Shown here: in pieces, positions 11,779-14,831 of the stretch
How positions within the stretch are numbered: position 1 is the first letter of the stretch
Layout: the number at the start of each line of letters is the position of its first letter
DNA from: Lachnospiraceae bacterium
GTDB taxonomy: Bacteria > Bacillota > Clostridia > Lachnospirales > Lachnospiraceae
Assembly (NCBI GenBank): GCA_022510585.1
Contig: JAFLTF010000009.1
Location: 1-42,773 of the forward strand
Direction: 5' to 3'
DNA length: 42,773 nucleotides
Notes under the pieces: generated by a model
Database searches by the model: none
What the model was told of the DNA's origin: nothing
Seen by the model: only the letters and a program-made list of their open reading frames with translations
Made by a program: the position numbers and the translations under genes

Positions 11779-11803
11779 AAGGAAGAACCGCTACAGCGAT
11801 TCT
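11776..11803 (-). terminator. Probable terminator of the DUF1292 gene
   Basis: AGAACCGCT (11784-11792) and AGCGATTCT (11795-11803) form a near-perfect 9-bp hairpin spanning the stop codon of the minus-strand DUF1292 gene. Read on the minus strand it is followed by TTCCTTTT. Read on the plus strand it has no T-run, so it mainly serves the minus-strand gene. Confidence 0.45.
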
Positions 11804-12153
11804 CCCCCTTCTAAATCCATGATCTCGTCAAATTCCGCAGAATCCAGATATTCATCAAAAGCCTCTCCGACAGCCTCATATTCATCGTCATCGTCAATGT
11901 ATTCTAAAACCGGCTCTTTATTCGGATCATTTTCATCCTCAAAATAGCGATAGAACCAGACTTCTCCGTTATCATTCTGCCCGTTTTCGTTTAACGGCAA
12001 AAGCACGATATAATCCTGATCTGCTATGGTTAAGATGGTAATAACGGCGCAAGTCACATGAGAACCGTCGTCCAAGTCCAAATCTACGGTCATTTCTTCG
12101 GATTCTGCTCCCGTCAGGTTCGTATCTTTTGTATTGCGATTGTTCTCTTTCAT
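11791..12153 (-). CDS. DUF1292 family acidic protein
   Basis: A 120-residue, very acidic protein. The core (about residues 20-80) has the DUF1292 pattern: VDLDLDDGSHVTCAVITILT, a hydrophobic strand DYIVLLPLNE, and VWFYRYFEDE. A C-terminal acidic helix carries EYEAVGEAFDEYLDSAEFDE. The family is widespread in Firmicutes and of unknown function; it is often encoded near yrzL/ruvX in other genomes. It is the only minus-strand gene between the helicase and the GH13-like gene. It has its own promoter (12187-12215), a purine-rich GGAAAGGGG ribosome binding site and its own likely terminator. Confidence 0.85.
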   Translation of the reverse strand: MKENNRNTKDTNLTGAESEEMTVDLDLDDGSHVTCAVITILTIADQDYIVLLPLNENGQNDNGEVWFYRYFEDENDPNKEPVLEYIDDDDEYEAVGEAFDEYLDSAEFDEIMDLEGGESL

Positions 12154-12215: not shown

Positions 12216-12321
12216 TGCATTTTTTTGTTTTTTTTCGGGATGGTAAAAAGATGTTATTCGTGTTATACTATACAAACAGGAGCTAATAAGATACACATCA
12301 AAGAGAACACCCGGAGGTTTT

Positions 12322-14289
12322 ATGCAGAAATCTTTTCATGTGACGGCTTCATCTATTTATCCATTGGGCGTATGTTTTGTACCGGAAGGGCTACATATCG
12401 CCGCAATCTGCGACAAAGAAACGGATTGCGGTATTCTTTTATTTGATAAAAATCATAAAGACGGTATCAAAATACCTTTTTTACAGGAAAGTAGAAAAGG
12501 AAATATTCATGCTATGCTGCTGCAGGGTTATCATGATAAAGATTGTACCTATCTTTTCTATCAGGGCGAGGAACTTTTTCAGGATAATTACGCATATGCT
12601 CTTGAAAATGAGAGGAAATACGGTGAGGATAAGGAAATACCGTCCCGTTGCAAAGTGCTGGGAGATACTTATGACTGGGAAGAAGATAAGTCTCCGACAA
12701 TTCCTTTTGAAGAAAGTATCATTTATATGCTGCATGTGCGGGGATTTACAAAACATCGTTCCTCCGGTGTTCGTGCCAAAGGAACCTATGCCGGTGTTAT
12801 GGAAAAAATCCCCTATTTGAAAGAACTTGGGATCAATGCTGTTTTACTGATGCCTACCTATGAATTTGATGAAATTTTACGAAAAGAAAAGCAGCCCCAA
12901 AGTATGGAGCAAGCAGCCCTTTTCTATAAAGAAAAAGGTGAACAGGAAGAACCCATCCGTATCAATTACTGGGGATATCAGGAAGGCTTATACTTTCTGC
13001 CCAAATATGCCTATTCCCATAAAAAAGATGCGGTAACGGAATTTAAAGACCTTGTAAAGGCGTTGCATCAAAATGGAATAGAGATCCTGATGCAGTTTTA
13101 TTTTCCGCCTACGGTGGGTTATACGAAAATGTTTCATATTCTTAAATATTGGGTATTGGAATATCATATTGACGGTTTTCAGCTTATGGGAAATGATATT
13201 CCGCTGCATACGCTTCGAAAAGAACCATTATTAGCGGAAACCAAGCTGATCGGAGAAAAAGATGATCATTCCGGTGAGACCGGTAATCCTGCAGATATAA
13301 GTGCAAATGTTTCGTTTTACCGTAATTTTGGTTATATGAACGATAACTTTCTATATGATATGAGAAGGCTGTTAAAAGGCGATGCCAATATGATTGAAAG
13401 TCTGGTCTGTCTTTGCAGGAAAAATCCGACGGATCGAGGAATTGTCAATTATATTGCCAAACAGGACGGCTTTCGTTTATATGATCTGGTTTCCTATAAC
13501 AACAAGCATAATGAACCCAATGGTGAAGATAATCAGGACGGAAATTCGGAGAACTTTAGTTGGAATTGCGGTATTGAAGGAAAAACGCGAAAGAAAGATA
13601 TCACGAACCTGCGGCTGCGGCAGATGAAAAATGCGCTTTCGTTTGTCATGCTTTCACAGGGAACGCCGCTTCTATACAGCGGAGATGAATTTGCCAACTC
13701 ACAGGAAGGGAATAACAATCCCTATTGTCAGGATAATCCAGTCTGTTGGATCAAATGGAATCATCTTAAAATCGGAGAAGAGCTTTTAGCCTATACCAAA
13801 GAACTGATTGCCTTACGAAAAAGGCATTCCATCCTGCATATGCGAACGCCGCTTAGGGGGATGGATCATCTTTCCTGTGGCTATCCGGATATTTCTTTTC
13901 ACGGAAGAGAAGCCTGGATACCAAATACATCGTCAGAAAGCAGGAGTCTTGGAATCATGTATTGCTGCCGCTATGGGAAAGATGAGGACAAGGCAAAAGA
14001 AACTTTGCTTTATCTCGGTATTAATATGCATTGGATGACGCAACAGTTCGGTCTGCCGCAAATACCGAAAGGACTGGAATGGGTACGGATATTATCCACA
14101 GATTCCCGGGAAACGGAGAGAGAAGTACTTCCCAAGGCGGACCAGGAAACGCTTCAATATATACAGATCCCGCCTCGCACCGTCATGATATACAGCGCAC
14201 AAAGAGGACGGACAGAGGAGGAATATGAGGAGAAGGAAAAAACAATTAAGAAAAAGAGAAATATTAAGAGAACGCGGGAATCATCATGA
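12322..14289 (+). CDS. GH13 (GlgX/pullulanase-like) protein lacking catalytic residues
   Basis: A 655-residue protein aligned by eye with glycogen-debranching and isoamylase-type GH13 enzymes. It has an N-terminal CBM48-like part (about 1-130), the barrel entry MLHVRGFTKH, YWGYQEGLYF, LVSYNNKHNEPNGEDNQDG, SWNCGIEG and LSQGTPLLYSGDEFANSQEG. The catalytic regions are degraded. The region I DVVxNH motif reads MQFYFPP. Region II, normally GFRFD with the Asp nucleophile, reads GFQLMG (about residue 285). Region IV HDG reads QDG. The acid-base Glu may survive in LIGEKDD. The loop between regions I and II is much shorter than usual. The best reading is a non-catalytic glucan-binding or regulatory protein. 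GGAGG precedes the ATG by 6 nt. The stop overlaps the next gene as ATGA. Confidence 0.85.
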   Translation: MQKSFHVTASSIYPLGVCFVPEGLHIAAICDKETDCGILLFDKNHKDGIKIPFLQESRKGNIHAMLLQGYHDKDCTYLFYQGEELFQDNYAYALENERKYGEDKEIPSRCKVLGDTYDWEEDKSPTIPFEESIIYMLHVRGFTKHRSSGVRAKGTYAGVMEKIPYLKELGINAVLLMPTYEFDEILRKEKQPQSMEQAALFYKEKGEQEEPIRINYWGYQEGLYFLPKYAYSHKKDAVTEFKDLVKALHQNGIEILMQFYFPPTVGYTKMFHILKYWVLEYHIDGFQLMGNDIPLHTLRKEPLLAETKLIGEKDDHSGETGNPADISANVSFYRNFGYMNDNFLYDMRRLLKGDANMIESLVCLCRKNPTDRGIVNYIAKQDGFRLYDLVSYNNKHNEPNGEDNQDGNSENFSWNCGIEGKTRKKDITNLRLRQMKNALSFVMLSQGTPLLYSGDEFANSQEGNNNPYCQDNPVCWIKWNHLKIGEELLAYTKELIALRKRHSILHMRTPLRGMDHLSCGYPDISFHGREAWIPNTSSESRSLGIMYCCRYGKDEDKAKETLLYLGINMHWMTQQFGLPQIPKGLEWVRILSTDSRETEREVLPKADQETLQYIQIPPRTVMIYSAQRGRTEEEYEEKEKTIKKKRNIKRTRESS

Positions 14290-14831
14290 AAGTATGGAGG
14301 CATTTTAAAACAATCACATATCATAAGTATCTGGTAATGCAGGGTTGCTTTAAGGTTGGTCTGTATAAGCAGGGACTGCTGCATGATCTGTCCAAATACA
14401 GTCCATCCGAATTTATAGTCGGCGCCAAATACTATCAGGGCAACAGAAGTCCTAATAATGCGGAGCGTGAAGACATCGGCTATTCTTCCGCCTGGCTGCA
14501 TCATAAAGGGCGGAACAAACACCATTACGAATACTGGATCGATTATAGTATGAAGGAGATTCCGGGAGGTATGGCTCCGGCTCCGATGCCGGATAAATAT
14601 ATTGTGGAAATGCTGATGGACAGGATTGCGGCATGTAAAGTATATCACGGAAAAACCTATACGGATAAAGATCCGCTTATTTATTATGAATCCGGAAAGG
14701 AACAGGCTCCTTTGCTGCTGCATGAGAAAACAAGAAAAAAACTGGAATTTTTATTGCGCATGCTGGCACAGAAAGGAGAGGACTACACCTTTTCCTATAT
14801 CAAACGGCGAATTTTATATAAAATATCCTAG
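14286..14831 (+). CDS. DUF5662 family protein
   Basis: A 181-residue protein assigned to DUF5662 from memory of the family. Notable features are LLHDLSKYSPSEF, a His-Asp pair reminiscent of HD-domain metal sites, a second His-rich stretch (WLHHKGRNKHHYEYW), a Pro-Met-rich turn (GGMAPAPMPDKY) and a helix with MLMDRIAACKVYHGK. The spacing of His and Asp residues suggests a metal-dependent hydrolase, but no activity is known to me. Its ATG overlaps the stop of the GH13-like gene (ATGA), so the two are co-translated. That pairing with a catalytically dead GH13 protein is the main clue to its role. Confidence 0.8.
   Translation: MKVWRHFKTITYHKYLVMQGCFKVGLYKQGLLHDLSKYSPSEFIVGAKYYQGNRSPNNAEREDIGYSSAWLHHKGRNKHHYEYWIDYSMKEIPGGMAPAPMPDKYIVEMLMDRIAACKVYHGKTYTDKDPLIYYESGKEQAPLLLHEKTRKKLEFLLRMLAQKGEDYTFSYIKRRILYKIS

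Follow-up and report, generated by a model that had tools for sequence, protein, structure and literature searches.

We describe a clade of catalytically dead GH13_11-type proteins in Lachnospiraceae, relatives of the debranching enzyme GlgX and of isoamylases, in which debranching seems to have been lost once and early, and which may have been kept for a non-catalytic role as an alpha-glucan-binding scaffold or regulator, a reading on which we are evenly divided. Comparative sequence analysis established that neither the nucleophile context nor the substrate loop survives in any member examined, that the members form a single clade under purifying selection with a conserved gene order, and that a region termed the border lobe is selectively conserved. 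The representative considered here was found in a 42,773 bp stretch of Lachnospiraceae DNA (hereafter the window), taken from a draft metagenome assembly of 191 contigs.

The gene, identified as that of a dead GlgX/isoamylase homologue by its reading frame, homology, alignment and predicted fold, occupies positions 12322..14289 on the + strand and encodes 655 aa from an ATG start with no internal stop, exactly the fully open frame reported in the preliminary description. Four bases 5' of the ATG lies a GGAGG motif (12313..12317, +), which reads as a strong ribosome-binding site. Direct reading of the upstream sequence also revealed a possible extended -10 promoter element of the form TG-T-TATACT (12264..12269, +, with the TG at 12261-12262); we rate it as weak because a consensus promoter scan did not include it among its sites, which were themselves not in excess over shuffles.

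The encoded protein matched TIGR02100, the GlgX equivalog model, with 318.6 bits (E 6.8e-95), half of the curated cut-off of 640.9 bits, just below which several genuine family GlgX also score. It passed the Pfam Alpha-amylase model PF00128 (35.3 bits, gathering score 22), and this score, together with a predicted fold matching isoamylases, places it in the alpha-amylase superfamily at the fold level. The best relatives of known structure were solved isoamylases and GlgX/TreX (E 1e-57 to 4e-65), and a profile-profile comparison of the pseudoenzymes with true GlgX gave an E value of 8e-171. Judged from these alignments, homology to GlgX/isoamylase (GH13_11-type) proteins is far above chance, and the TIGR02100, solved-structure and profile-profile matches bear out the initial assignment as a GH13 debranching-enzyme-like protein; the strings cited at that time as fold signatures (LVSYNNKHNEPNGEDNQDG, SWNCG and GDEFANSQEG) are all present. 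An AlphaFold2 model (pLDDT 90.1, pTM 0.91) confidently predicts an intact fold, for which the best Foldseek match was rice ISA1 (9j60, E 1.3e-53), followed by other ISA1 and GlgX entries.

As the active-site reference we used 30 true GlgX from the same bacterial family (Lachnospiraceae), aligned with the pseudoenzymes; all 30 keep the GH13 motifs DVVFNH or DVVYNH, GFRFD, EAWD and HDG. In the window protein, region I (residues 258-263, 13093..13110, +) is degenerate and reads QFYFPP instead of DVVFNH, within the string LMQFYFPP (residues 256-263). Region II (residues 285-289, 13174..13188, +) reads GFQLM instead of GFRFD, within HIDGFQLMG (282-290), where Met289 occupies the place of the nucleophile Asp and Q287 that of the region II Arg. 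Region III (residues 308-315, 13243..13266, +) reads KLIGEKDD instead of KLIAEAWD and contains Glu312, while region IV (residues 381-384, 13462..13473, +) reads QDGF instead of HDGF, within AKQDGF (379-384), and has lost the His and kept Asp382. The replacement of GFRFD by GFQLM, the breakdown of region I and the change of HDG to QDG had all been proposed from the letters alone, along with an alignment to GlgX as a check on the missing Asp; that alignment confirmed each of them, and the Asp is indeed missing, with no intact triad in the aligned sequence. The accompanying statement that catalytic residues were lost is correct for the nucleophile and can be refined for the triad: Glu312 (acid/base position) and Asp382 (transition-state position) survive in the window copy, and the nucleophile alone is gone. 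Among 100 clade members, the acid/base Glu and the transition-state Asp were each found in 28, and the residues at the nucleophile position included M, N, L, V, K and S; no more than a single member, L150 with the motif GFVLD, has Asp there. None of the 100 pairs the nucleophile with another triad residue, and an intact triad elsewhere in the protein could be ruled out.

A further feature, absent from the preliminary description, is the shortening of the stretch between regions I and II (13111..13170, +), which lacks some 44 residues that belong to the substrate loop in GlgX. The span between the two regions measures 28 aa in 97 and 27 aa in 3 of the 100 clade members, as opposed to 72 aa in 30/30 true GlgX, from which we concluded that the substrate loop was deleted from the pseudoenzymes. 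Judged by these residues and this loop, the protein is almost certainly catalytically inactive. Activity that was retained or regained with different residues would fit the survival of Glu312 and Asp382 in many members within the genus, but we consider it very unlikely, given that both residues vary across the clade, that the protein has neither the nucleophile nor the substrate loop, and that retaining GH13 chemistry requires the nucleophile.

The clade set of 100 proteins comprised the window protein, 60 + 20 proteins from the family and 19 from the genus, and the pseudoenzymes formed a single clade in trees with support of 100/100. A tree with few outgroups placed them beside GlgX of the L112 type and a broader tree did not; since the two disagree on branching order, we limit our claim to one clade. 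A shorter subgroup (L142-L151 and L161; n = 11, about 560-595 aa) has region III mostly deleted and a region II that mostly reads GF(I/V)(L/V/I)NP. As for L112 itself, this protein, L113 and L268 represent a second, catalytic GlgX type present in a few family genomes; in the broad tree this type is separate from the GlgX common in the family and groups with an Atopobiaceae sequence, and it was possibly acquired horizontally.

A protein search of 397 Lachnospiraceae genomes returned matches in 342, the best being full length, with true GlgX and further GH13 proteins counted among them. When 120 family genomes were searched with TIGR02100, about 96 carried the pseudoenzyme and 34 a true GlgX (31 both, 65 the pseudoenzyme alone, 3 GlgX alone and 21 neither); profile span and frame decided the class of each hit, residues being considered only for retrieved sequences, and absences are approximate as some genomes are incomplete. 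At the genus level, the pseudoenzyme was present in 56/60 genomes. Spread beyond Lachnospiraceae was considered and rejected: across 245 genomes of the class Clostridia, we recognized no pseudoenzyme outside the family, where only 3 matches were found, all with intact GlgX motifs. Of the best 80 relatives from an alignment-based scan of a named collection, 77 could be read and 48 of these are of the dead type; any family given by NCBI for the named-collection relatives was Lachnospiraceae, the exceptions being two Eubacterium records and one Clostridium record. The first reading of the protein as a pseudoenzyme was correct, but it had been treated as a single oddity, whereas the protein is family-wide. 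On the available sequences, debranching activity appears to have been lost by this clade in one early event within the family.

Purifying selection on the gene is strong, with dN/dS values of 0.086, 0.138, 0.101, 0.106, 0.117 and 0.140 in unsaturated genus pairs, the comparison among homologues that had been suggested as a check. Gene decay or misassembly, in favor of which one could cite only that the metagenome assembly is a draft, is hardly credible and was rejected, as the frame is open in dozens of independent genomes, dN/dS is around 0.1 and gene order is conserved. The proposal of a maintained pseudoenzyme is thus upheld by the single inactive clade, the low dN/dS, the predicted intact fold, the strong ribosome-binding site and the conserved gene order.

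Conservation was distributed unevenly along the protein. We took alignment columns conserved in at least 95% of true GlgX, in the numbering of GlgX L115, and scored them as kept when conserved in at least 90% of pseudoenzymes. In the active-site segment (residues 251-400), 4/76 such columns were kept and 56 lost; in the border lobe (residues 449-540), 31/38 were kept and none lost. The lobe corresponds by alignment to residues 391-479, approximately, of the window protein (13492..13758, +). In plant isoamylase it carries a surface glucan-binding site, and in maize ISA1 it contains N561, W578 and N628; there, W578 is in direct contact with glucan at secondary binding site 2, and N628 touches N561 (PMC12510319). 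The counterparts of these three residues, N397, W414 and N464, were found in 100/100, 99/100 and 100/100 pseudoenzymes, respectively, a mapping based on an Arabidopsis ISA1 alignment and matching spacings of 17 and 50 residues rather than on superposition on a glucan complex, with the glucan contacts taken from PMC12510319 and two reviews.

This selective retention fits the earlier suggestion that a glucan-binding or regulatory role is plausible. The border lobe and the neighboring surface would bind alpha-glucan chains (glycogen or maltodextrin) without cutting them, and the bound protein may anchor or modulate other glycogen enzymes such as the synthase, the branching enzyme and the phosphorylase, a role that need not be limited to serving as a GlgX subunit. 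Border-lobe conservation could also be structural rather than ligand-driven. Alternatively, the fold may now serve a ligand or partner that has nothing to do with alpha-glucan: the old cleft has been rebuilt, with the loop deleted and regions I-III replaced by clade-specific sequence. We regard such reuse as unlikely because the best-conserved region is the one common to catalytic GlgX and tied to glucan binding in plants.

The source genome also harbors a separate GlgX on another contig (G000:C117:2203-4409, L046), with every motif intact, although this gene is broken by an assembly gap of N across which the reading frame differs. Its presence raises the alternative of a regulatory subunit dependent on a catalytic GlgX, following the precedent of the plant isoamylase ISA2, which is non-catalytic and binds ISA1 (PMC3787081, PMC12510319). 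The pseudoenzyme is present in 31/34 family genomes that have GlgX, but the two are only weakly associated (Fisher p 0.075) and 65/96 pseudoenzyme carriers have no recognized GlgX. Moreover, ISA2 lacks the site-2 sequence (PMC12510319) that the pseudoenzyme clade keeps. As two thirds of the carriers have no recognized GlgX, we find a pure ISA2-like GlgX subunit improbable. A more specific form of the scaffold reading, in which a family-wide non-catalytic isoamylase, with an origin independent of ISA2 and acting for the most part with no debranching partner, would hold chains at the border lobe, recruit other enzymes and in this way shape glycogen, is offered only tentatively. Co-occurrence with glgA was discarded as evidence for a glycogen role, since glgA is nearly universal (116/120 family genomes) and its co-occurrence carries no information.

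The surrounding gene order is conserved and consists of gltX, a UvrD-type helicase gene, a DUF1292 gene on the opposite strand, the pseudoenzyme gene, a DUF5662 gene and trpS. The pseudoenzyme gene is thus placed between the helicase gene and trpS and not within a glg operon, which counts against a glycogen role. The DUF1292 gene (11791-12153, -) faces the pseudoenzyme gene and was found at the same place in 34/79 loci. The DUF5662 gene (14286..14831, +) overlaps the pseudoenzyme stop by ATGA and is likely carried on the same transcript. In 52/79 relatives' loci it follows the pseudoenzyme gene in the same orientation, mostly overlapping or within 90 bp, and it was present in 99/120 family genomes. 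Its product has invariant His and Asp residues (H33 D34, H72 H73, H79 H80 and D112) resembling those of metal enzymes; its predicted fold is mainly helical, and it has a relative in a phage family, phrog_20637. The overlap, the recurrent arrangement and the metal-enzyme-like residues would suit a DUF5662 protein that is the main partner, with the pseudoenzyme as its scaffold, sensor or regulator. We judge this rather unlikely, as 16/99 DUF5662 carriers lack the pseudoenzyme and 13/96 pseudoenzyme carriers lack DUF5662, the two may be neighbors by descent, and Foldseek returned no significant solved match for the predicted DUF5662 fold (best hit a putative phosphohydrolase, E 0.54).

Our survey of the open-access literature (5.39 million papers) returned nothing on pseudoenzymes in connection with isoamylase and glycogen, on inactive GH13 proteins in Lachnospiraceae or on DUF5662; on pseudoenzyme GH13 proteins in bacteria it returned one unrelated paper and none describing the Lachnospiraceae protein. 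Two glgX homologues were counted in Blautia obeum in a review (PMC10395257). Homology-based counts of debranching enzymes in gut genomes should be treated with caution, as the dead form is about three times commoner than the true enzyme in the sampled genomes (96 vs 34 of 120). Why selection continues to keep a non-catalytic isoamylase such as plant ISA2 "is not understood" (PMC12510319), and the Lachnospiraceae pseudoenzyme provides a bacterial, partly culturable counterpart to that question.

Among known systems, GlgX (TIGR02100, GH13_11) shares with the pseudoenzyme a CBM48-like N-terminus, a barrel and a C-terminal beta domain in the same order, 35% identity over 598 columns of a profile alignment and the same border lobe; unlike GlgX, the pseudoenzyme is without the nucleophile, DVVFNH and the EAWD/HD pairing, and its loop of about 44 aa is deleted. 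Plant ISA1 is the closest solved fold (rice, 9j60) and has the border-lobe residues in common with the pseudoenzyme but is catalytic. ISA2 is likewise an inactive isoamylase homologue, long maintained with its catalytic residues lost: each ISA2 examined departs from the conserved catalytic residues at no fewer than 4/5 positions, and the protein keeps site 1, lacks site 2 and has an extra N-terminal domain (PMC12510319). In contrast, the pseudoenzyme keeps the site-2 lobe, whose site-2 residues are invariant or nearly so in the clade, and begins at the CBM48-like part (first strand at residue 6, ISA1 alignment from residue 5) rather than with the extra N-terminal beta-sandwich of ISA2. While ISA2 has ISA1 as its partner, the pseudoenzyme mostly occurs without GlgX, the source genome being among those that have one. 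Finally, the pseudoenzyme profile matches ISA1 at 413 bits, far above the 226 bits for ISA2, which suggests that the pseudoenzyme and ISA2 represent independent losses.
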